Origin: a virus
IMG/VR virus record: IMGVR_UViG_3300044568_001101
Span: 1 to 29,419 of that record
Reading direction: 5' to 3' (one strand)
Length of the DNA stretch: 29,419 bases
Shown here: positions 6,483 to 26,640 of the stretch, piece by piece
Numbering within the stretch: position 1 is the stretch's first letter
How the letters are laid out: each line of letters begins with the position of its first letter
The notes under the pieces: model-generated
What the model saw: only the letters and a program-made list of their open reading frames with translations
Databases searched by the model: none
Told to the model about the DNA's origin: nothing
Program-made: the position numbers and the translations under genes

Positions 6483-6860
6483 TTAAAGCAGTCTGTCGGC
6501 CTCTATCTGCCAATCTTTTGCGTTGCTAATGCTATCTCCTTTGGTGTATTGCAGATATTCTGTTAGGGCTTGAATGCTATATGCATCAACGCCTAATTCG
6601 TTTGTAAATGACAAAACTTCCTCTCCAACTAATTCAACCTGCTCCCACATAAGAAGCACATCCATTGCCGTATCGGATACCCTTCCTGCTGCTGCGGTAA
6701 GCTCCGAAACACTTCTATTGTTTTCAGTAATAGCGGCACCAAGTCGGGCAATCATAATTTCAAGGTCATTAACCATAGACATATCAACCTTTCGCTCCTG
6801 CTTAAGGCTAACATTACCTACTTTTGAAAGCAAGTTGTAAACTCGCTGCTGATGGTTCAT
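6483..6860 (-). CDS. Pre-capsid tandem paralogue 1
   Basis: 125 residues starting MNHQQRVYNLLSKVG, with a helical centre and the signature NELGVDAYSIQALTEYLQ near residue 88. It is the first of three tandem paralogues before the capsid gene. ATG overlaps the scaffold-like gene stop as ATGA, so the set is coupled to scaffold translation. The copies share the start and the L-G-[IV]-D region but differ widely between them, pointing to an old duplication with separate roles. Confidence 0.8.
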   Translation of the reverse strand: MNHQQRVYNLLSKVGNVSLKQERKVDMSMVNDLEIMIARLGAAITENNRSVSELTAAAGRVSDTAMDVLLMWEQVELVGEEVLSFTNELGVDAYSIQALTEYLQYTKGDSISNAKDWQIEADRLL

Positions 6861-7414
6861 CGGTTGCTCAACTTAGAGAGAACTCGGTCAAAAGTAGTAG
6901 CGGCAGAACGGTTAGATGAAAGCTGAACTTGCTCTTTCTCTGGCCTAGAAGGGTTGTGCTTGATGGCTTTGGCAGCAGGCTGCTTGCTCATCTCCTCTTT
7001 CTTCTTCTCCATATATTCCTTCATCTTCTTCATTTCCTCTTTGACTTCTTCAATCATCGGGGCAACAACGTCAACTACGGCTTGGACAATTTCCTCAACG
7101 GCAGGTGCAATTTCAGCAGGAGCCTCAACCTCAATTTCTTCGGCATCAATAGCTACTTCTTCGGTCTCGCCTTCTTTTTTGGTTACTTCGGCAATCATAC
7201 CTTCCTCTGCAACTTTTAGAAGCGAGCCATCTTCCATTGTGTAATCACCAACGGGAAGTGGGATGCGCTCATCTTCGGTTACGATAAAGATTTCATTACC
7301 TGATTCAAACGACTCGGCTTCTAATACCGTTCCGTTGTCAAGGGTCATCTGTGCGAGTTTGGTCTTGCGATTCAGCTCCACAAGGATTTTTTTAAGGATG
7401 TCTGTTGCTTTCAT
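6857..7414 (-). CDS. Scaffold-like acidic coiled-coil head protein
   Basis: 185 residues from ATG at 7414 (a TTG two codons earlier is less likely). Residues about 20-75 form a small beta domain with repeated DG turns (LDNGTVLEAESF, MEDGSLLKVAEEG). Residues about 80-120 are very acidic and rich in Ala and Val, followed by a charged coiled coil (EEVKEEMKKMKEYMEKKKEE) and a basic, serine-rich tail. Acidic helical proteins placed between the head protease and the capsid gene are usually scaffolds that are cleaved during maturation; that assignment is by position and composition, not by a defined motif. Confidence 0.7.
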   Translation of the reverse strand: MKATDILKKILVELNRKTKLAQMTLDNGTVLEAESFESGNEIFIVTEDERIPLPVGDYTMEDGSLLKVAEEGMIAEVTKKEGETEEVAIDAEEIEVEAPAEIAPAVEEIVQAVVDVVAPMIEEVKEEMKKMKEYMEKKKEEMSKQPAAKAIKHNPSRPEKEQVQLSSNRSAATTFDRVLSKLSNR

Positions 7415-7450
7415 AACCAAGTAATCTTATTTCTGTGTTTTGTTGCATTT

Positions 7451-7603
7451 TTACTCTGGCAGTTTAACCGTAACGCCTACGCCCTGCGCCCAAAGGCTTC
7501 CATCGCAGCATTTTTTGGAGTAGGTATTGGCATCTCTGCACAGACAACCTCTACGGCCACCTCTGGGACTGCTTCGGCTTGGGGTCTTTTCATCTTCACT
7601 CAT
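7451..7603 (-). CDS. Cysteine-rich microprotein (RRGCLC type)
   Basis: 50 residues, starting at an ATG that overlaps the last eight bases of the protease gene. It carries RGGRRGCLCRD (15-25), then YSKKCCDGSLWAQG (28-41). The four cysteines (20, 22, 32, 33) suggest a metal-binding or disulphide knuckle. Short proteins with this arrangement occur beside head genes in other Bacteroidota phages, as far as I recall; no function is known to me. The 36 bases between its stop and the next start hold no other gene. Confidence 0.75.
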   Translation of the reverse strand: MSEDEKTPSRSSPRGGRRGCLCRDANTYSKKCCDGSLWAQGVGVTVKLPE

Positions 7604-8546
7604 AACGGCTGACAATTTTAACTACTTCGTACAGAAAGTCCATAGCCTCTTCGTGAGTCATATCTTCTACCTCTGTCAAGATATCTGTATTGACTGATGC
7701 TTCAATTTCTCCAAGTTCTTTTAATTTACCACGAGACCAGTTAAGTCCCGACTTACCGCCCCAAGCATCATACATCAACTTACCGCAGCCATCAGAGTAG
7801 CTTTTACTTGCATTAAGGTCTGCTTCGTGACGGCTCAAGTAAGAGTACATACGTTTTATGGTTTCCAGAGAAATTGATTCTCCCTTCGCCAGTTGATTGG
7901 CTCGTTGCTTACCAACATCAGTTCCGCATCCGCCCCATCCGTTTTTCTCAACCCAGTCAAGTACGTTACGAGCATTTGCTTTGACGTCATTTGGATAGTC
8001 CGCAAACGACTCCATCTCTTCTTTTGCCATATTAACCTTGTCGGCAAAGTAGCCTTCAATAGAAAAACCTTTGACGCTTCCAGACTTTACGTACTCGTTC
8101 CAAACGTCATCATTGCTAACCTTGACGCTAACCATCCAAGTTCCTGCTGGGTAGGAAAGTCCGTAGAAAGATGACTTGTCTTTTTCTGGGTCTTCTATAA
8201 TCCAAGACTCCACAACCGAAAGCCCATTCACCTTTGCTTGATGCTCTAAAGTGTGATTGTTCTGGTAGCCACGCATCAAAAAGAGTTCAGCAGCCCTGCG
8301 AATTGTTGTCTTGGAAAAGAATACGTAAAACTCCTCTCCGTCTTGATTTCGGTAGATGGTTTTGTTGGGAATTAACGCTGGACCGATAAGCAGTTTCTTT
8401 TCTGCACTCTGTTCCGCAAACTCTGTTTTTTGCTGGCGGTTAAGTGCTATAAAGTTTCCCTCAATAGCGGGATGCTCCACAATACTGATTGCGTCTACTC
8501 CGTTGAGCATTGACGTTTCGTCAAGGATAAGTTCAATGATTTTCAT
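7596..8546 (-). CDS. Head maturation protease (XkdF-like) with extra C-terminal domain
   Basis: 316 residues. Residues 1-170 resemble the XkdF-type putative serine protease: a VEHPAIEGNF start region, a histidine region NNHTLEHQAKV (97-106) followed by VVESWIIEDPEKDK, and GSVKGFSIEGYF (156-167) with Ser162 as the likely nucleophile. It should cleave scaffold and capsid precursors inside the procapsid. Residues about 185-278 form a second domain (ARNVLDWVEKNGWGGCGTDV, then SLETIKRMYSYLSRHEADL and CGKLMYDAWGG) that often accompanies phage head proteases and has no known role. The gene begins six bases after the tape measure stop. Confidence 0.82.
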   Translation of the reverse strand: MKIIELILDETSMLNGVDAISIVEHPAIEGNFIALNRQQKTEFAEQSAEKKLLIGPALIPNKTIYRNQDGEEFYVFFSKTTIRRAAELFLMRGYQNNHTLEHQAKVNGLSVVESWIIEDPEKDKSSFYGLSYPAGTWMVSVKVSNDDVWNEYVKSGSVKGFSIEGYFADKVNMAKEEMESFADYPNDVKANARNVLDWVEKNGWGGCGTDVGKQRANQLAKGESISLETIKRMYSYLSRHEADLNASKSYSDGCGKLMYDAWGGKSGLNWSRGKLKELGEIEASVNTDILTEVEDMTHEEAMDFLYEVVKIVSRYE

Positions 8547-8552
8547 AACTAA

Positions 8553-10454
8553 TTAACCGAAAGTTGCCGTTCTGATGCGTTTCCGTTCAAGTTCCGCACC
8601 TGACATTACATCACCGTTGACTACATAAGCCCGTACGGGGTTTTGAAATTGCCCCGCTATGTCCGCTAAAAGTTGGTTTGTGCCCGACTGCCCAACGATA
8701 TTAAAAGAAGGCTGCACAGAGGGTATTTGAGGGGCTGATGGGCTTGATGAGGATGCTTGCCCTCCTCCGTCAAACTTTTGTGCGCTGATGGTAGCGATTT
8801 GAGTAGCTCCCGTTGCTGCTATAATTGCTGCCTTTGCCCAGTTTGCTCCAGTTAATTGGTCTTGAGGAACGGACAACTGCCCGATAATTCCTGCTGCCGT
8901 ATTAATAATAGCTTGAAGCAACTGCAGTTTCTTACCACGCTCAAATGCACGCCTTGCTGCGTTCTCATCATCCTTGTCGTAAATTTCATTGAGCTTCATC
9001 AAGTTCTCAATGGTGGCGTTTGCACTATCTACAATTAAATCACGTATCTCTTGATTGCGCTTTATTTTTTTGTCTGCAGCTTCTTTGGCCGCATCCTCTT
9101 CTTTATCACGATACTTGTTGTTGATTTCCAGCAGTTCCTTTTCACGCTGCTCGGTAATCATTGCCAGCATTTCAGCGTTGTTTGCGTAAAACTGCTCCAG
9201 AGCGAAGAACTTGTCAAGCGTTGCGTTGATTTCCTGCTGCTCATCACTCTGCTGCTGCTGAAGGACTTTTTCGTCAAACTGCTTCTGCATATCCAGCTCG
9301 TGGTTCCGAGCATTCTCTGCAGCCTGCGCTTCGGCATCTGATTTGCGCTGAGCAGCGTCAGCTGCATCTTTTAATGCTTTATCCGCAGCCTCCTTCGCTT
9401 TCTCTGCTGCGGCTTTTGCTGCGGCTTCCTTTTCCTTTTTCTCTTCAACTAGGAATCCATCACGAGTACTCTTAAGTTTTGCCAGTTGGTTCTCCGTTTC
9501 CTTAATAGCCTCTTCACCTTCGGCCTTTACTTCATCTGGGTCAAATACTAATTTGGCTAAGCCACCACTAAATCCTTCTTCCAAGCCAAAGTCCTTACCC
9601 AGTACCTTACCAATTGAGTCAATAGTCCCCAGCAAAATGCTAAGTGGCAAGGTCAAAAACCTTATTATCCCTTGAAGTATCTGCTTATTGCGATTGGCTG
9701 CATCTATTTGACTTTTCTGAATTTGCTTCTGCGAAAGAAGTTGAGCCTCCAACGCTTTGATTGTCTCATCGGTCTGCTGAATTTTCAAGTCCCGAATCTC
9801 CCTTTCGGACTTTCCCTGCAGTTTTAGGGAGTTCTCCTGAAGAGAGATAGCATCTAATGCTTCCTGCTGCGCTTTGGCGTTCTGCTCCGCAAGTTCTTTG
9901 TTCTTGGTAAGTTCAACGCTTGCACCAGAAATAGCCCCTTTGATGTCATCCCAATAGGCAACGAGTAACCCAACGCCAACAACTAGCGCACCAATACCCG
10001 TAGCTATTATGGCAACCCGAAGGACTTTTGCTGCTGCTGCTCCGTTGGTAAATGCAAGTTGCAGAGTCTGACCAAACAACTTGACGTTGTTGATTGTCTG
10101 CATAAGCAGATTCTGCATTGAAAACGTAGACCACCATTCTTTGGCCTTACCAATAGCATCAGTTACGCCAAGTTTAATAAGTTGGAATGCCTTGAACGCT
10201 TTCTGACCAAGTTCAATGTAACCGCCAGTCGCTCGGTCAATATCACGGATTACCTCCTTCTTGGCTTGGGCAAGTTTGCGCTCCTCGCTTTCCTGCTCTC
10301 TTGTAGCTTTTGTTGCTTTCTTGCTGGACTCCTCCCGCTTCGCACCAAGCGCATCTACTTCTTTACCCGTTTCACTAATGGAGTTGCGAAGCTCCTCTAC
10401 GGATGCTACGGCTTCGGAAGTATCCGCTTTGATTTCGTATTCCTTTATCGCCAT
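8553..10454 (-). CDS. Tape measure protein
   Basis: 633 residues, largely helical. There is an N-terminal coiled coil (about 15-75), a hydrophobic segment around 148-168 (IATGIGALVVGVGLLVAYW), long Lys/Glu/Ala coiled coils (about 340-500), and a C-terminal hydrophobic part (LLQAIINTAAGIIGQLS) leading to QKFDGGGQ and a Ser/Pro-rich tail. This layout is typical of tape measure proteins, which set tail length and help DNA ejection. With the usual 0.15 nm per residue, the tail would be about 95 nm, an estimate only. The start overlaps the small gene upstream. Confidence 0.88.
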   Translation of the reverse strand: MAIKEYEIKADTSEAVASVEELRNSISETGKEVDALGAKREESSKKATKATREQESEERKLAQAKKEVIRDIDRATGGYIELGQKAFKAFQLIKLGVTDAIGKAKEWWSTFSMQNLLMQTINNVKLFGQTLQLAFTNGAAAAKVLRVAIIATGIGALVVGVGLLVAYWDDIKGAISGASVELTKNKELAEQNAKAQQEALDAISLQENSLKLQGKSEREIRDLKIQQTDETIKALEAQLLSQKQIQKSQIDAANRNKQILQGIIRFLTLPLSILLGTIDSIGKVLGKDFGLEEGFSGGLAKLVFDPDEVKAEGEEAIKETENQLAKLKSTRDGFLVEEKKEKEAAAKAAAEKAKEAADKALKDAADAAQRKSDAEAQAAENARNHELDMQKQFDEKVLQQQQSDEQQEINATLDKFFALEQFYANNAEMLAMITEQREKELLEINNKYRDKEEDAAKEAADKKIKRNQEIRDLIVDSANATIENLMKLNEIYDKDDENAARRAFERGKKLQLLQAIINTAAGIIGQLSVPQDQLTGANWAKAAIIAATGATQIATISAQKFDGGGQASSSSPSAPQIPSVQPSFNIVGQSGTNQLLADIAGQFQNPVRAYVVNGDVMSGAELERKRIRTATFG

Positions 10455-13898: not shown

Positions 13899-14476
13899 TT
13901 CTCTTTGAGGTAGTTTTCAATATCCTGACCAATGGCTTTCTCAAGCAAGGTCGGTAGTTTCTGCGAAACTTCGTTGAATGGGTTGGTTAAAAAGTAAGTC
14001 TGTGCAATGCCCTTTCGCTTGATAGAGCGAGCAATCACATAGGCCATATTTTCGTAGCTCTTGTCCGTTATCTTGCCTTTTGCAAAACGCCCCTGCACAT
14101 CTCGTAAGCGGATCCGCTTGGTTCGCATCCACTCAAAGATAGCCAACTGCATATCTGGGCTTACGCCCTCGTTCTTAAAAGAGAAAGGACTGGGGTCGGG
14201 AGTTGAGTGCCGAGTTCCGCTTACACCCAAGTCCACAAACGCTCCGTAGTCAGCAACGTCTATTGCTACAGACAAAGGGTCGCTTACGCCATCGCCAAGA
14301 ACTGGTTTCACTTTAAGGCTACGCCATAGGTTGAATGATGCGCTGATGCGCTTGGTTATGATTTTACCATCGTTCTGACGTACGGGTTGCCTTCGGTCAA
14401 GATTTCGCCTTGCTCTGTCCACAATTGTTTGTGCAGCCAGAGCCAGAGCAACCTTCGTTTGGTCAAACTTTAGCAT
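13895..14476 (-). CDS. Tail completion protein (HK97 gp10-like)
   Basis: 193 residues from ATG at 14476; an upstream GTG at 14524 would overlap the previous gene by 55 bases. The arrangement is that of HK97 gp10-like proteins: an N-terminal helix (LALAAQTIVDRARRN), a central strand region with YGAFVDLGVSGT, and a C-terminal helix (PTLLEKAIGQDIENYL). Such proteins sit at the head-tail interface or complete the tail. The ATG overlaps the preceding stop by seven bases. Confidence 0.72.
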   Translation of the reverse strand: MLKFDQTKVALALAAQTIVDRARRNLDRRQPVRQNDGKIITKRISASFNLWRSLKVKPVLGDGVSDPLSVAIDVADYGAFVDLGVSGTRHSTPDPSPFSFKNEGVSPDMQLAIFEWMRTKRIRLRDVQGRFAKGKITDKSYENMAYVIARSIKRKGIAQTYFLTNPFNEVSQKLPTLLEKAIGQDIENYLKEK

Positions 14477-14946
14477 ACACTGATTTCGGTATTTGCGGTC
14501 TTGATGGTTAGGGTCATTAGCCACCCAGCTAACTTATTCTCAAAGCGGTCAAGAAACGGAACGCAGGAAGGGATGCCATCAATTTGATACATTTCTGTGT
14601 ATAGGTCTCCCTTAACAAGGTCTTGAGTTAGGCTATTCAGAACTACCAACGTGCTATTCAAAACATCTTGCAGGTTGTCCTGCCCGTAGAAAGGGTCAGC
14701 CTCTGTGCGTATGTCGTTCTTATCTACGTCTACAATATCCATAACCAGAATATCCAGAGTAAAAACAACCGTGTTAAAGTATTGTCCCTGAAACTGGGCA
14801 TCTCTAACTATGACGTGAGCCAGAGGGAATATAGTTTGCTTACGCAAGTCAATGTCATCAATGTCTCCGAACGATACGTTGTTAATCAACGGGTGAGCAG
14901 ATAAGTACTCGTTAACTTTTTCCAGAATTAAATATAGGTTTCTCAT
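14470..14946 (-). CDS. Tail terminator-like protein
   Basis: 158 residues with an alpha/beta layout: an N-terminal helix (LYLILEKVNEYLSAHPLI), paired strands around residues 42-70 that include FNTVVFTLDILVMD, a helix (LQDVLNSTLVVLNSLTQDL), and C-terminal strands (AGWLMTLTIKT). This order matches the tail terminator/completion fold and lies in the usual place beside a gp10-like gene. The start ATG forms ATGA with the stop of the -1-frame chaperone segment, which supports translation of that segment. Confidence 0.65.
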   Translation of the reverse strand: MRNLYLILEKVNEYLSAHPLINNVSFGDIDDIDLRKQTIFPLAHVIVRDAQFQGQYFNTVVFTLDILVMDIVDVDKNDIRTEADPFYGQDNLQDVLNSTLVVLNSLTQDLVKGDLYTEMYQIDGIPSCVPFLDRFENKLAGWLMTLTIKTANTEISVC

Positions 14947-15200
14947 CTTTTATACTTTTCTAATTGGGCACGCTCAACTTCCGACTTGTGCTTTTCGTAA
15001 CTGGCGTGGGTAAAAGCAAAGTGGACGTTAAGTTTGCTAACTGCTTCAAACCTAGTAACATCTCCAGAGGCAAGGGTGTAGTAGAGATGGTACCATCCCC
15101 ATCGTTTAGAGAACGCTCCCAACGAAGAGAGCTCGTCTGACCCTCCATCACCATAGATGTCAGGGTATCCTTGCACAATTCTGTTCCTAAACGATAAATA
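14943..15200 (-). CDS. -1-frame extension of the tail assembly chaperone
   Basis: 85 residues read in the -1 frame relative to the preceding entry. It includes KRWGWYHLYYTLASGDVTRF and then KLNVHFAFTHASYEKHKSE, with a lysine-rich end. Helical C-terminal parts of this kind are usually joined to the N-terminal domain in related phage proteins. There is no ATG; the only plausible independent start is a GTG at 15176. Its stop TGA overlaps the ATG of the tail terminator gene, the same coupling seen between most genes here. Fusion at the slippery site would give a protein of 244 residues. A base missing from the assembly is the main alternative. Confidence 0.7.
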   Translation of the reverse strand, partial: YLSFRNRIVQGYPDIYGDGGSDELSSLGAFSKRWGWYHLYYTLASGDVTRFEAVSKLNVHFAFTHASYEKHKSEVERAQLEKYKR

Positions 15201-15676
15201 AAATTTACGGCACCAAATACTACATCCATTGGGAGTTGCTTCATACGCTCTGCAAATTTAGCAGTTCCCTCGTAGTCCTCAATGTTGTACAATTGCTTGT
15301 ACTTGGACTTAACGGGTCTAAAAAGAACAGACATCGCTTTGTGCATTTGCTGCCAGTCGGCTATGTTTTCTTCCAAGTCCGTGTATTCTCCCAGCGACAT
15401 TTCGTCAAGGTTTGGGATAAAGCCAAATTCCAACCCGTTTAAGGTAGTTCTTAGCTTGTGTGGTGTCTTTTCTTTAAAGAGTTGGCCAACGGCCTCTGCA
15501 ATCTCATTTACGGACGTGTAGCGCAACTTTGCCACATCGCTCAAAGGGATGTTGCACATAATCTCAATCAACTTCAAAGAACGAAACTCATCATCGCCAG
15601 TTATGGTCAGCCATTTCTGGTATTGACCAAGCGTAATGTCCGCCAGAGAGTCGGGTATGTTTACCTTAATTTTCAC
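14960..15676 (-). CDS. Tail assembly chaperone-like protein, unshifted frame
   Basis: 238 residues from GTG at 15676 (starts MKIKVNIPDSLADITLGQYQ when GTG is read as Met); a TTG at 15712 would lie within the previous gene. The first 160-175 residues look like a real conserved protein (ITLGQYQKWL, MSLGEYTDLEENIADWQQMH, KQLPMDVVFGAVNFIYRLG). The last 70 or so residues, low in charge and rich in Leu, Thr and Pro, look like a non-functional reading of sequence whose other frame is well conserved. The likely full product shifts frame near 15200; see the next two entries. The role is inferred from the tail context and from the pairing of frames as in lambda G/GT. Confidence 0.7.
   Translation of the reverse strand: MKIKVNIPDSLADITLGQYQKWLTITGDDEFRSLKLIEIMCNIPLSDVAKLRYTSVNEIAEAVGQLFKEKTPHKLRTTLNGLEFGFIPNLDEMSLGEYTDLEENIADWQQMHKAMSVLFRPVKSKYKQLYNIEDYEGTAKFAERMKQLPMDVVFGAVNFIYRLGTELCKDTLTSMVMEGQTSSLRWERSLNDGDGTISTTPLPLEMLLGLKQLANLTSTLLLPTPVTKSTSRKLSVPN
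15200..15206 (-). promoter_or_regulatory. Candidate -1 frameshift heptamer A AAT TTT
   Basis: In the upstream frame the minus strand reads GTA AAT TTT, giving the canonical slippery form X XXY YYZ (A AAT TTT). A one-base backward slip moves reading into the frame that holds the conserved C-terminal segment. It is the only canonical heptamer I found in the stretch where both frames are open. I could not confirm a stimulating stem-loop downstream. Confidence 0.55.
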
Positions 15677-16109: not shown

Positions 16110-16563
16110 TCTTGAGTGTGTTAAAAATTGAACTGAGGGAAATTTTAGTTTCATCGGAGAGTTCCCTCATTGACATCTCCTGCTTTATGTAAATAGTCAT
16201 CAGCTTTTCATCGTACCAGTTCCACGTCTTAACCTCTGTCCAGATTGAGTGAACCAATACCTGCATTGCTTCTTCTTGTTCCTCTGCACTTCCCTCGTCC
16301 ACCATCTCTGGAATGCGGTCGGTAGTCTGGAATCTTGACCTGCTTTTGGCGTAGTCAGCATACATATTCTTTAAAGCTATGTAAACAAACAAAGTGTTCA
16401 CCTCGTTCTTGTACATAATCTTCTCTGGCTCGCTTACGTACTTGTGCATCCGAAGGTACATCTCCTGAACGATATCCTCCACCATATGACTGGGGCACCC
16501 AAAGGACTGCACCATTCGGCACCAATCCTTGTGACGGGTTGAGAGAAGTTCCAGCACGTTCAT
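16039..16563 (-). CDS. Sigma-70-like transcription factor
   Basis: 174 residues. Residues 11-75 resemble sigma region 2 (MVEDIVQEMYLRMHKY, then a FVYIALKNMYADYAKSR helix). Residues 118-160 resemble the region 4 helix-turn-helix (KLMTIYIKQEMSMRELSDET, then SSIFNTLKNGKQRIK). The order and length fit a small ECF-type sigma, or a non-sigma relative with the same fold. It overlaps the terminase large subunit stop as ATGA. It may direct host RNA polymerase to late phage promoters; that is inference, since no matching late promoter was identified. Confidence 0.72.
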   Translation of the reverse strand: MNVLELLSTRHKDWCRMVQSFGCPSHMVEDIVQEMYLRMHKYVSEPEKIMYKNEVNTLFVYIALKNMYADYAKSRSRFQTTDRIPEMVDEGSAEEQEEAMQVLVHSIWTEVKTWNWYDEKLMTIYIKQEMSMRELSDETKISLSSIFNTLKNGKQRIKTNCKKAYKSWKETGSR

Positions 16564-17720
16564 CGTATTGCGTATCTACCATAGTTTGGTCTTGACAACC
16601 GATTAAATGTAGCGTATCTGGTCGCATCTATTGCGTGGTTGAAAGCATCAACGGGTCGGTTAAGTAGGTTGCCGTTCTTATCATCCATCCACTTGTAGTT
16701 CTGGAACTCTTTGATTACGTTCAAGTCCGAGCGCATCAAATGTATTCGGTGGCGTTTCAGTACGTCAATGCCAGCCATTACCGAGTCGGCTCCCTTTACG
16801 GCTGGTTTTATGTTCCAGCCCATTCGGTGCAGTTCCTCAATAGACTTTGGTTCTGCGGAGTCTGCCCATATCTCATCTTGCCGAGAAAAGCCAAGTCCAC
16901 GTAAACATTCGCTAATATCCGTATTGGTAAGATTGGTTTTGTAGAGCAGCTCTTTTACATACAAGTTGTCTCCCTTTTTGTAAATGCGGACAATGGCAGT
17001 AGGGTCGTTGGTGAAACCGAAGTCAAGTCCCGTAGAAACCAAGTCGGCATCCTCTGGCACTTCATCTACAATTTGATATTGGAACACGGCAGCCCGATTT
17101 GTTCCTCGCTCACCAAGTCCATAGATTCGCCAGTAATCATTATCCGTATCCTTAAGGCGTTCAATTTCCGAAACAATAGTTTCATTTAAGAACGGGTTAT
17201 CAAGGTAGGTAGTCTGATAGAAGTCGCAATCATCACGAGGGATTACCTTATCGTATATCCAGTGAAAAGTCTCCGAAGGGTTGTAGTCAATAATTACCTT
17301 TCCCTCCGTACGGAAGATAAGCTGCTGCCAGTCCTCGTAGTAGAGTTCATTAGCCTCGTTAATAAAAAGTAGGTTACGCTTCCGTCCACGAATCTTCTGG
17401 GGTTGGTCAAGGCTGATGAACTCAACCAAGTTCCCATTCAGGTGGTATTCGTTACTTGACTTGTTGTGAAACTCCTCAAGGTAAATGTTGTGTTCCCGTA
17501 GTATTTGAAAAAAGTCCCTCATTACGGAAGCACGAAGCGAGGGGAACGTCTTACGACAGATTGTTATAACCGAGCCCTTATTGTTTACCGAGTAATGAAA
17601 AATAAGCCACAAGATGATGTTATAGGTTTTACCCGAACGGGTGCCCCCTTGTTGCACCGTTATGCGCTTAGAGGAGCGCAAAAGGTGCTTGTACACCTTA
17701 TTTGTTTCAATCAGTCTCAA
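16560..17720 (-). CDS. terL: Terminase large subunit
   Basis: 386 residues. ATPase: Walker A GGTRSGKT (25-32) and Walker B LLFINEAN (117-124, catalytic Glu122). RNase H-like nuclease: Asp233 in LDFGFTNDPT, Asp287 in WADSAEPKS and Asp365 in HAIDATRYA. The motor cuts and pumps DNA into the procapsid through the portal. The best start is TTG at 17720, because a stop lies nine bases upstream and the next option, GTG at 17696, would remove part of the conserved lead-in to Walker A. The family looks like the PBSX/SPP1-type terminase. It overlaps the small subunit gene by 14 bases. Confidence 0.95.
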   Translation of the reverse strand: MRLIETNKVYKHLLRSSKRITVQQGGTRSGKTYNIILWLIFHYSVNNKGSVITICRKTFPSLRASVMRDFFQILREHNIYLEEFHNKSSNEYHLNGNLVEFISLDQPQKIRGRKRNLLFINEANELYYEDWQQLIFRTEGKVIIDYNPSETFHWIYDKVIPRDDCDFYQTTYLDNPFLNETIVSEIERLKDTDNDYWRIYGLGERGTNRAAVFQYQIVDEVPEDADLVSTGLDFGFTNDPTAIVRIYKKGDNLYVKELLYKTNLTNTDISECLRGLGFSRQDEIWADSAEPKSIEELHRMGWNIKPAVKGADSVMAGIDVLKRHRIHLMRSDLNVIKEFQNYKWMDDKNGNLLNRPVDAFNHAIDATRYATFNRLSRPNYGRYAIR

Positions 17721-18048
17721 TAATTCTTACATTGAATAAGTTGTCGCTGGTTGTTTGTATTTCCTGACGCTCAACATAGCCACGATGCTTGCCTTTAGTT
17801 TTTAGAAAGAAGATAGTAGCGGTGGAGTTGCCATCCTTTATCTGCTTGTGCAGTTGGCTCTCTGCGAAGTCAAGAGTCATATCGGCAATTGATTCCACTT
17901 GACTGCGGTAGTTCTCATCTTCCTTGTACCACTCGTAGTGAGTCTGTCTGGCAATGCCCACTGTCTTGCAAGCAGCCGTTACAATTCCCAAAGATTTCTC
18001 AAGGGCTTCAGTCATTGCTTTTTTCTGTATGTCAGTTTTTGTCAGCAT
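17707..18048 (-). CDS. terS: Terminase small subunit
   Basis: 113 residues with an N-terminal helix-turn-helix (SLGIVTAACKTVGIARQTHY), a central helix pair (VESIADMTLDFAESQLHKQI) and a LKTKGKHRGYVER motif before the C-terminal tail, as in phage TerS proteins that bind the packaging site. It lies directly before terL and overlaps the end of the dioxygenase gene by 17 bases, tying the modification cassette to packaging genes in one transcript. Confidence 0.88.
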   Translation of the reverse strand: MLTKTDIQKKAMTEALEKSLGIVTAACKTVGIARQTHYEWYKEDENYRSQVESIADMTLDFAESQLHKQIKDGNSTATIFFLKTKGKHRGYVERQEIQTTSDNLFNVRIIETD

Positions 18049-18934
18049 TTCTTATTTTGTTCTTTATAAGTTCGTTGTCGCTTTGAGTCTTTAGTTCCTG
18101 CCTTCTTTTGTCAAGTGAAGCCAGATGATCAGGGTCAAGGCGTTTCTTTTCTCGTTCAGTTTTCACCTTGCGGATGCGTTTGATTTCTTCTCCCAAAGGT
18201 TCGCACTTCCACATTTGCTCAAGGGAGTAGTAGACTAATGAGTATCGGTATGCCGAATCGTTTTTGTATTCAATGCTTGATACTCCGTGAAGAATATCCT
18301 GCCCGTTGAAAATTGTTATGGTATTATCTTCTACTTCCAGAGCAAGGTCAAATTCTGGGATTATTAAATGCCCTCCCTCAATGTCTTTCTTAAACACAAC
18401 CATATTAGACAGAACGCTTTTAAAGTTCCCTGCGTCAAAGTGGTATTTCAGTTGGTTGTTTCTGTTTACAATCCCGCTAGTAAATGGAGAGCCTCCTATC
18501 TTCCAGTCCTGCATTACTCGCTCCTCTACTACTGCATTGTGGTATTCATACTGCTCTGGAAAGTGTTCTCTGTAATAGCCTACAAGTTCTTTGGCGAAGT
18601 CCGTAATTACGTGGTGCTGCTTCGGGTAGTTGTGAGCCATTGACGTTACGGTACAATAGTCGTGGCGCATTGCTACTCGTGGAGAGAACCCGAAGATAGC
18701 GGATGTTGACTCAAGCCCTCTGCTTCTTTTACCCGTTGAGTATTTTTGACTCTTTACTGCCCAGCGTAATGCCGAAGTATCTGTCTGTAGTTTTTTGTAC
18801 AGAACAACGGGCACGTTATCTACGTAGATAATGCAGTCCTCTTTTATAAGGTTTGTTACATCACTGCGGAGTGCGGTTCGTTTCTTGAACTTGCCTTTAT
18901 CTACTGGCAGTCTCTCTAAGTCAAGGCGTATCAT
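18032..18934 (-). CDS. TET/JBP-type 2-oxoglutarate Fe(II) dioxygenase
   Basis: 300 residues. The double-stranded beta-helix core holds the iron ligands His165-x-Asp167 in YHFDAGNF, a GGHLIIPEFD strand (187-196), FNGQDILHGVSS with the distal ligand His216, and Arg230 in YRYSLVYYS for 2-oxoglutarate. The pattern H-x-D-x-G-N ... GG-x-L-x-x-P-E ... LHG is that of the TET/JBP family, which oxidises the methyl group of 5-methylcytosine or thymine in DNA. The charged tail after residue 250 may bind DNA. The start overlaps the glycosyltransferase gene as ATGA. No DNA methyltransferase is present in the window, so thymine or host-made 5-methylcytosine are both possible substrates. The family call is good; the base specificity is unknown. 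Confidence 0.8.
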   Translation of the reverse strand: MIRLDLERLPVDKGKFKKRTALRSDVTNLIKEDCIIYVDNVPVVLYKKLQTDTSALRWAVKSQKYSTGKRSRGLESTSAIFGFSPRVAMRHDYCTVTSMAHNYPKQHHVITDFAKELVGYYREHFPEQYEYHNAVVEERVMQDWKIGGSPFTSGIVNRNNQLKYHFDAGNFKSVLSNMVVFKKDIEGGHLIIPEFDLALEVEDNTITIFNGQDILHGVSSIEYKNDSAYRYSLVYYSLEQMWKCEPLGEEIKRIRKVKTEREKKRLDPDHLASLDKRRQELKTQSDNELIKNKIRNADKN

Positions 18935-19650
18935 TTTAGTTTCTTTGATTTGTATTGCTCACCTATAAGTTTTGGCTCATAGTACCATCGCTTATCTTCC
19001 TTAACAATTATGCCAACGGTTGGGTCTGTTGATTGGAACACGGCAATTTCTTTTTGGGCTTGTTCCTTTCGGTCAAAAGCCTGATGGCCTCCAGCCCCAC
19101 TTCCTACGGGCTTGCATTTGATTGGGTGCCGAGCGCAGAACAAGGTAAACTCATTATTGTGAACCATCTGGAAAAACTGGTAAAAGTCCTCAAATGTGTT
19201 TATCTCCTCACGTGGGCGGAACGAACTAGTGCGTATCAAATAGCAGGTTTGCACTCGTTTGTTTACGTGCGTAAATAGTCGCTTGCTTTTAGCGTAGAAC
19301 TCAAAGTCATACGGGAACACAACGGCTCCAAGATTAGGGTAAGATTTGAAGTAAGACAGAATCTCCGTTAGGTCGCTGGCTATCTCACCTACTGCAGATA
19401 CGTCATCGTCAATCTTGAATATTACGTCATAGCCGTTCTCTTCTGCGTAACGCTTGGCCTCCGTCAGGGCGTACCATATCCCAGCGTTGCTGCGCTCTAG
19501 TTTTAGTTTGTTGGGGTAGTCGTACTTGTCGTAGTCATCTTCCTCTAAAACAAGCAGGGTATCAATACCCAAACTATCAACAAAAGCACGACAGACTTTC
19601 TGAAATAACTCAGGCCTCTGTTTACTGGGTATTACTGCTAAGGGTTTCAA
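18931..19650 (-). CDS. TET-associated-type glycosyltransferase
   Basis: 239 residues, GT-A-like. The first strand (LAVIPSKQRPELFQ) is at the very start, which requires the TTG start at 19650: a stop lies 12 bases upstream and there is no nearby ATG. Other features are a LLVLEEDDYDKY strand, the metal and sugar-nucleotide motif KIDDDV (79-84), LGAVVFPYDFEF, and GSGAGGHQAFDR (183-194). The layout matches the TET-associated glycosyltransferase (TAGT) type described beside phage TET/JBP enzymes. The inferred role is to place a sugar on the hydroxymethyl base made by the neighbouring dioxygenase. It overlaps the ParB-like gene by 29 bases. Confidence 0.75.
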   Translation of the reverse strand: MKPLAVIPSKQRPELFQKVCRAFVDSLGIDTLLVLEEDDYDKYDYPNKLKLERSNAGIWYALTEAKRYAEENGYDVIFKIDDDVSAVGEIASDLTEILSYFKSYPNLGAVVFPYDFEFYAKSKRLFTHVNKRVQTCYLIRTSSFRPREEINTFEDFYQFFQMVHNNEFTLFCARHPIKCKPVGSGAGGHQAFDRKEQAQKEIAVFQSTDPTVGIIVKEDKRWYYEPKLIGEQYKSKKLK

Positions 19651-20212
19651 GTAGGTAAATAATTACGTCAGTGTTGCTTTCCAGTTCTTTCTCTTTGGCA
19701 ATCTCCTCCAGCTTTCCAATAACGTACTCGTATTGTTGGTTGTCAAAGTACAAAGTTATCTGTTTTACTTTGGAATTGATGTACTTGTCAAGGGCTTCAT
19801 CCAACTCATCCTTATCAAATTCTGGCTCCTTATCATCATCAAAGTATGATGCAGGGATATCCAAGCCCCAGTCAACCAGTTCCTCTATGCTCCACTCGTT
19901 CGCAAGAACGTCCCAATCCCACTCACCGAATGATGAATTGTCTTTGATAACAAACTCCTTCTTTTGTTCTTCCGTTAAGTCCGTAGCAAGAATAACGGGA
20001 ACTTCAGTAAGCCCTGCCTCACGACAAGCACGAAGGCGCATATTGCCACCAAGCACCATCATATCATTATCTACAACAATTGGTCGCAGCTTGAGCATCT
20101 CTGGGAACTCCTTGATGCTGCTAACAAGTTTTTTGAACTTATCGTTCTTAATTACTCTAGGGTTGTTCGGTGCGAGTTTCACCGTGTTAATAGGAACAAT
20201 CTCAGTTTTCAT
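19622..20212 (-). CDS. ParB/sulfiredoxin-fold protein of the modification cassette
   Basis: 196 residues. Residues 1-70 are a ParB N-terminal domain: PINTVKLAPNNPRVI, FPEMLKLRPIVVD, then the nucleotide-binding motif GGNMRLRACREAGL (55-68). Then comes DLTEEQKKEFVIKDNSSFGEWDWDVLA, usual in phage ParB-like proteins, an acidic linker and a C-terminal alpha/beta part. There is no methyltransferase fused to it, unlike many phage homologues. ParB-like domains of this type are recurrent partners in phage DNA modification operons; their activity there (nuclease, kinase or NTPase) is not settled. Confidence 0.8.
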   Translation of the reverse strand: MKTEIVPINTVKLAPNNPRVIKNDKFKKLVSSIKEFPEMLKLRPIVVDNDMMVLGGNMRLRACREAGLTEVPVILATDLTEEQKKEFVIKDNSSFGEWDWDVLANEWSIEELVDWGLDIPASYFDDDKEPEFDKDELDEALDKYINSKVKQITLYFDNQQYEYVIGKLEEIAKEKELESNTDVIIYLLETLSSNTQ

Positions 20213-20912
20213 TTTTCTTAAATAGTTTGTTGGGTTTTAAATTAGGGCTTACATCAAGTGCCCAGCTGGCAGTTTGATAGGACTCGTAGTAGAACTTTTC
20301 TCTGGGAACTGTCTCCCAGTTGTCGTTGTGCCACTTTGTCCACGCCACGTTCATCGGTTTGTACTTTGGTAGCACTTTCTTAACCACACGAGAAAGGAAT
20401 GCGGGTCCAGTTGTCTGCAAAACAAACCGACCTTTCCACTCGTTGTAGATTTTGTTTGCGCTCTTCTCGGCATAGTTCTCAATTAGTTCCTCAAAAATTA
20501 TCTCCCAAAGCTTCAGGCCTGCCTCTGTTCCCATAAAGTCGTTCTGAACAAACTCGTGGTGGTTTGGGATTAAATGATGCAAGGTGTGAAGAACAAAGCG
20601 TTGCTCTCGCAAAGGCTCAAAAGACTGGATGCAGTGAGAGTCCAAGTCGCAGTAGAAACCTCCGTGAACATAGAGAACTAGGAACTTGGTAAAGTCAACC
20701 CTCTGAATGTTGTACCTAAGGCTCTGGTAGAAGTCCAGAAGGTCAGGGCGATGTTCTTTTACCAAAGCGAGGGCATCTTCCGCCCCCCACAATTTATACT
20801 CCCAGTCGGGGTGTATTTCCTTCATTGTTCTGATGCTCTCCACAAAGATGGGTATGTTTTCCAATGGCCCGTTCCACGGGAAGTATATCTGGTGAATCTT
20901 CTTTGGTATCAT
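20202..20912 (-). CDS. DXD glycosyltransferase (capsular/OCH1-like)
   Basis: 236 residues. It begins with IPKKIHQIYFPWNG, the usual start of glycosyltransferases with a DXD sugar-binding region, then PDWEYKLWG, and YVHGGFYCDLDSH with the metal-binding Asp89-x-Asp91. A C-terminal part contains TTGPAFLSRVVKK. The enzyme should transfer a sugar from a nucleotide donor. Next to a TET/JBP enzyme and a TAGT-like enzyme it could extend or add sugars on DNA; modification of a virion or host surface protein is the alternative. ATGA overlap with the HNH gene. Confidence 0.82.
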   Translation of the reverse strand: MIPKKIHQIYFPWNGPLENIPIFVESIRTMKEIHPDWEYKLWGAEDALALVKEHRPDLLDFYQSLRYNIQRVDFTKFLVLYVHGGFYCDLDSHCIQSFEPLREQRFVLHTLHHLIPNHHEFVQNDFMGTEAGLKLWEIIFEELIENYAEKSANKIYNEWKGRFVLQTTGPAFLSRVVKKVLPKYKPMNVAWTKWHNDNWETVPREKFYYESYQTASWALDVSPNLKPNKLFKKNEN

Positions 20913-25934: not shown

Positions 25935-25959
25935 AAAAAAAAACCCCGAGTTAACGAGG
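25935..25959 (-). terminator. Rho-independent terminator after the SSB-like gene
   Basis: On the minus strand CCTCG pairs with CGGGG (five pairs with one U-G) around TTAACT, followed by nine T; flanking A and T runs lengthen the stem. It begins eight bases past the stop of the SSB-like gene. It may reduce transcription of the helicase block compared with SSB. Confidence 0.75.
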
Positions 25960-26591: not shown

Positions 26592-26631
26592 TTGGTTAAG
26601 CAAAAATAAAAAAATTATCCCAATTACCAAA
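26592..26631 (-). promoter_or_regulatory. Promoter P1 with operator-like palindrome
   Basis: On the minus strand TTTG (26628-26631), a spacer of exactly 19 bases and TATTTTTG (26601-26608) reproduce the Bacteroidota sigma-A consensus perfectly. TTGCTTAACCAA (26592-26603) overlaps the -7 box end and the presumed start site, as at promoter P2. It is the best promoter in the window. Confidence 0.85.
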
Positions 26632-26640
26632 AAAAAAGAA

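Follow-up and report, generated by a model that had tools for sequence, protein, structure and literature searches.

A tail-module gene of an uncultured phage, probably a tail assembly chaperone made as two products by −1 slippage at A AAT TTT, within a family whose slip sites are mostly T9 or T10

At one locus in the tail module of an uncultured marine phage two conserved protein regions lie in different reading frames, which raises the questions of whether they belong to a single protein, how they might be joined, and what the joined protein might do. The locus was analysed within a viral record of 29.4 kb (29,419 nt; the whole of this stretch is called the window here). A 238 aa ORF on the minus strand (14960–15676) opens with a GTG at 15676, a start consistent with the alignment of relatives, and encodes a putative chaperone N-terminal domain (gpG-like) followed by a 78-codon 0-frame tail. 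The −1 frame is open on the same strand from 15257 to 14943 and carries the motif KRWGWYHLYY. Where both frames are open lies the heptamer A AAT TTT (15206–15200, minus strand), which fits the XXXYYYZ pattern, is in phase, and is read GTA AAT TTT in the 0 frame and AAA TTT TAT in the −1 frame; from there a −1-frame extension (14943–15206, minus strand) with a gpT-like domain containing KRWGWY runs for 87 codons to a TGA at 14943–14945. We consider it likely that this gene encodes a tail assembly chaperone of a phage related to the flavobacterial phage P12024L, and that the chaperone is made as two products by −1 ribosomal slippage at A AAT TTT. Most ribosomes would stay in the 0 frame and give the gpG-like protein, and a minority would slip back by one base on the heptamer to give a gpGT-like protein with its C-terminal domain from the −1 frame, a product ratio that we infer; the predicted length of the shifted product (157+2+85 = 244 residues) is the one already put forward in the preliminary description.

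Two features of the layout deserve mention. The next gene (14470–14946, minus strand), which encodes a small tail-module protein (phrog_30964), begins within the −1-frame stop, the two sharing an ATGA at 14946–14943, and the same overlap is found at 104 family sites among those with a readable −1 stop, most −1 stops overlapping the ATG of the next gene. The 0 frame continues for about 78 codons (240 nt) past the slip, while the mean slip-to-stop distance reported with PRFect is 26 nt (SEA-PHAGES) or 36 nt (Xu set), so that the unshifted run, put at about 80 codons on first inspection, was rightly called longer than usual; in the T-run relatives included in the openness analysis described below the 0-frame tail has 46–65 codons.

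Since AAATTTT occurs eight times in the window against about 13 expected, the heptamer is not rare by itself, and the case for frameshifting rests on comparison with relatives. These were gathered by scans of viral contigs and one scan of GTDB genomes, which gave more than 150 usable loci, and at least 595 family matches were confirmed in marine viral contigs. Every one of the 73 viral loci fetched first that have both domains shows the C-terminal domain offset by −1 from the N-terminal one, at the identical place, and the −1 frame is conserved in all relatives with both domains. Alignment with relatives, the check that the preliminary description had proposed, revealed neither a single-frame fusion, be it among 168 loci with a KRWGWY-type domain (where the −1 frame is never open far enough upstream) or among 35 further, more distant loci, nor a site lacking a slippery sequence among the 129 distinct sites (90 with T9, 27 with T10 and 12 with AAATTTT). 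The heptamer is invariant in all 15 sequences of the window's clade, and this invariance, the −1 offset in every two-domain relative and the change in codon periodicity at the heptamer exceed what chance would give. The cultured Nonlabens phages P12024L and P12024S belong among the relatives and share the −1 offset. The P12024L record, examined in full, has the same arrangement with a T9 site, its −1 frame extends back just two codons from the site before it closes, and its annotation lists gp40 and gp41 as two separate hypothetical proteins. In several loci of the P12024L group a −1-frame stop lies 2–3 codons before the T run; the shift thus cannot happen upstream of the run and must occur at the site.

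Some matches stand apart from this set. Two loci found with the C-terminal domain (L005 and L006) were dropped because an unrelated protein (YGDGGSDE) had matched there by chance. The same chaperone gene, with T9, also occurs on a contig assigned to Euryarchaeota (PBGL02000003.1), probably a misbinned flavobacterial phage contig. Three distant viral relatives in BFVD (A0A6J5N0W0, of 267 aa, A0A516L5A8 and A0A6J7XA66; 234–267 aa overall) match the models of both the N- and the C-terminal domain, which suggests that some lineages may carry the two domains in one frame.

Variation within the window's clade peaks at 0-frame codon position 3 upstream of the site (0.51 versus 0.23 and 0.16), and downstream at 0-frame position 2 (equal to −1-frame position 3); the change sits at the slip site. 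It is clearest in the window's clade and is also seen in three T-run clades, where it takes place more gradually over the first 60–100 nt. Moreover, a stretch right after the slip (15146–15193, minus strand) is dual-coding, the 0-frame peptide YxLGxEL and the −1 peptide xFRxRIV both being conserved. With −1 codons resampled synonymously, the 0-frame peptide identity was 0.47 against 0.23 expected over the first 8 codons after the slip (z 16) and 0.35 against 0.27 over codons 9–16 (z 4.4), z values that are upper bounds, divergent representatives having been treated as independent; a control at the WGWY stretch gave no excess 0-frame conservation (z −1). Because the 0-frame peptide is conserved past the slip, we regard the unshifted product as real, with a functional end beyond the slip. 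Selection over the entire 78-codon tail was considered and rejected, since peptide conservation fades past about 16 codons; we count just its first portion as functional, and in sequence the remainder looks unconstrained. The openness of the 0-frame tail is mildly unexpected in the window's clade (p 0.09–0.5 under synonymous shuffling) and more so in several T-run lineages. Sequence comparison therefore backs the conserved frame offset, the site, selection on both frames and the coupling to the next gene, and the −1 programmed frameshift that had been thought likely from the window's letters is upheld, together with its details: an ORF from 15676 and an ORF to 14943 offset by −1, a heptamer in the doubly open stretch, and a downstream gene coupled by ATGA.

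As to what the protein does, chaperone function appears likely from sequence and structural modelling. The N-terminal domain with 22 residues past the slip (residues 1–180) gave a confident model (pLDDT 90.9), for which the top solved chain in VIA-align was the HK97 tail assembly chaperone (PDB 2ob9; Z 3.8, a weak value, over 67 residues; next chain 2.9). This is the best solved fold match to the N-terminal domain (residues 1–71, rmsd 3.7), and the HK97 gene is likewise annotated with a −1 frameshift, although identity is 9% and only part of the domain is matched. Foldseek with the N-domain model gave 36 viral relatives at E 0.001 or lower, few of which carry a name, and among its weaker hits is a BFVD entry called tail assembly chaperone (E 0.02); against the PDB it found no match with E below 5, and the C-domain model (pLDDT 76) had no informative match among solved structures. 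In profile searches Phage_TAC_7 (Pfam) stayed below cut-off (E 0.1 in the window, 0.005 in the best relative) and phrog_166 (tail protein) matched weakly in 8 of 26 members. The gene lies inside the tail module, with the tape measure gene (8553–10454, minus strand; phrog_24676, E 1.9e-12; phrog_9483, E 4e-8), whose product is the presumed chaperone client, downstream beyond four genes, and the gene for the terminase large subunit (16560–17720, minus strand; Pfam Terminase_3, E 1e-24) upstream beyond two. The label of tail assembly chaperone given on first reading is thus retained, if less strongly supported than the frameshift, and the proposed lambda G/GT-like location holds as regards the tail module but not as regards adjacency to the tape measure gene, directly ahead of which such chaperone genes usually lie. 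That the gene is frameshifted and belongs to the tail module, yet encodes a tail protein other than a G/GT chaperone, would accord with the unknown function of its own families (phrog_32199 and phrog_38404), the weak match to a solved structure and the distance to the tape measure gene. We nevertheless consider this unlikely, given that the best solved match is the HK97 chaperone, that the BFVD entry points the same way, and that two domains joined by a −1 frameshift are, within a tail module, the typical architecture of a chaperone. It is the confident model with its HK97 match, the tail module and this architecture that lead us to identify the gene as a chaperone.

The closest known counterpart of such a chaperone gene is lambda G/GT (−1 frameshift; PMC5009743), where, as here, a two-domain chaperone is encoded in the tail module, the C-terminal domain is reached only via a −1 shift at a slippery heptamer, and both products are expected. 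In chaperones of this type the ratio of the two products is important for tail assembly, and the selection seen on both frames fits the making of both. By analogy with lambda, the N-terminal domain would bind the tape measure and the C-terminal domain the tail tube protein. In lambda, most of T extends past the end of G, next to the tape measure gene, whereas here the 0 frame covers nearly all of the C-terminal domain, four genes precede the tape measure gene, the slippery site is another one, and a stem is predicted about 4 nt 3′ of it. The 0-frame tail is far shorter in typical chaperones than in the window's gene. The gp40/gp41 pair of P12024L (phrog_32199 and phrog_38404) is homologous and has the same −1 offset, but with a T9 site and a short 0-frame tail (about 28 codons). 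The system is therefore of a known kind, a lambda-type frameshifted chaperone; what is uncommon is the replacement of the slippery site within one family and the partly dual-coded, unusually long 0-frame tail.

How the frames are joined may differ across the family. Transcriptional slippage, in which RNA polymerase would insert an extra base at the site and some of the mRNAs would thereby join the frames, is plausible for the T9/T10 relatives, which make up 117 of the 129 distinct sites. Runs of 9 A or T cause bacterial polymerase to slip (PMC5009743; PMC1088944), and the T runs at these sites are never below nine; T runs of nine or more are otherwise rare in those loci (172 over 149 loci, one per locus being the slip site), which favours transcriptional slippage there. 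On the other hand, coding for VFFY around T TTT TTT mostly requires T9 in any case, and ribosomal slippage fits the T-run relatives too; the mechanism may thus not be uniform across the family. For the window itself we regard transcriptional slippage as quite improbable: its site has four Ts and three As, short of the run lengths (about 8–9) on which polymerase is known to slip. At A AAT TTT, by contrast, both tRNAs can re-pair at −1, the Phe codon fully and the Asn codon at two of three positions. We therefore take −1 ribosomal frameshifting with a 3′ stem to be the best reading for the window. The literature searched contains no report of transcriptional slippage in a tail chaperone, or of tail chaperones from Flavobacterium phages.

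The stem in question is a predicted long-range pairing between a 5′ arm at 15184–15195, about 4 nt after the heptamer, and a 3′ arm at 15101–15112 (both minus strand), and it would stimulate slippage in this clade; −1 frameshifting signals commonly, though not obligatorily, include a stem or pseudoknot a few nt 3′ of the heptamer. The strand from the heptamer folds at −41.9 kcal/mol (z −3.4 versus dinucleotide shuffles), and the stem, which is also a consensus stem, is predicted for 15 of 15 clade members. Two of its pairs covary, one changing from C-G to U-A in the window and the other varying between A-U, G-C and G-U; the covariation score was reached by 17 of 500 shuffles and reflects few independent changes (two pairs, one lineage). 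Under synonymous shuffling of −1-frame codons the 14 AAATTTT sequences have a mean fold z of −1.8 (all below −1), and 147 T-run relatives show no stem signal (mean z −0.06), an absence which also agrees with transcriptional slippage in the latter. We suggest that the stem probably stimulates slippage in the window's clade.

In a tree rooted on the P12024L group the AAATTTT sequences (14 tips) form one monophyletic group (support 0.96) nested inside T-run lineages, the branches directly outside it having moderate support (0.70–0.81). As the 14 tips are one clade they represent a single evolutionary change, and the between-group rank test does not compare 14 independent observations. Judged from sequence, this would be an uncommon twist: a slippery site replaced inside one gene family, with AAATTTT and a predicted stem in the window's clade alone versus T9/T10 with no detectable stem elsewhere. 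Tentatively, we propose that the family swapped its recoding mechanism, most lineages using polymerase slippage on T9/T10 and the nested window clade having turned to ribosomal −1 frameshifting at AAATTTT with a gained RNA stem, the junction and the dual-coded tail being kept. If true, the swap would be the phage-tail counterpart of dnaX, whose homologues in E. coli and Thermus thermophilus arrive at the same pair of products, through ribosomal frameshifting in one case and slippage at a run of nine in the other (PMC1088944). That case concerns another gene; here the split would run through a single family of phage genes, with a T-run mechanism that is no more than inferred.

A further possibility is that the two domains belong to separate overlapping genes, the C-terminal domain being translated from an internal start such as the GTG at 15176 via coupling. 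Such a GTG does open a 77-aa ORF, and in P12024L gp41 is annotated as a distinct 55-aa gene. Yet at 79 of the 117 T-run sites the −1 frame offers no start codon (ATG, GTG or TTG) from the slip to WGWY, conservation of the −1 frame (FxxFRxRIV) starts right at the slip and hence upstream of the GTG at 15176, and no site lacks a slippery sequence. Internal initiation of the C-terminal domain was rejected on the ground that most T-run relatives have no in-frame start at all, and we hold separate genes to be very improbable. Although a frame break in one contig would look identical, an indel near 15200 that broke a single ORF, through sequencing or assembly error or gene decay, has next to no likelihood, because contigs assembled independently and the cultured P12024L and P12024S records all have this offset in the same position, which refutes sequencing error, and because purifying selection acts on both sides of the site and in both frames.

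With the −1 ribosomal frameshift favoured here for the window, two PHROG families without known function, which are split in cultured-phage annotation, gain a likely role and a correct gene model. Further, because one junction of this gene naturally holds either T9/T10 or AAATTTT with its predicted stem as recoding site, transcriptional and ribosomal slippage may be compared directly in related phages.

Several minor observations were made elsewhere in the window. On the minus strand at 18032–20912, genes for a Tet/JBP-type oxygenase, a TET-associated glycosyltransferase, a ParB N-terminal domain protein and a sugar transferase stand in a row, which is probably a DNA base hypermodification cassette; in P12024L a 2OGFeDO oxygenase adjoins a glucosyltransferase. 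The gene at 18035–18934 (minus strand) is labelled queuine tRNA-ribosyltransferase by PHROG 6059 and Tet_JBP oxygenase by Pfam (E 2e-14), and the PHROG label looks wrong; a link from that label through tRNA-Asn modification to the AAT codon of the heptamer was accordingly dropped. Two neighbouring genes at 6857–8546 (minus strand) match separate parts of phrog_24921 (residues 13–181 and 221–284), which may mean that a single protease-type gene is split at this place. T9 runs occur only twice in the window (25935–25943 and 26629–26637, minus strand), each time just outside listed ORFs, and are possible terminators.
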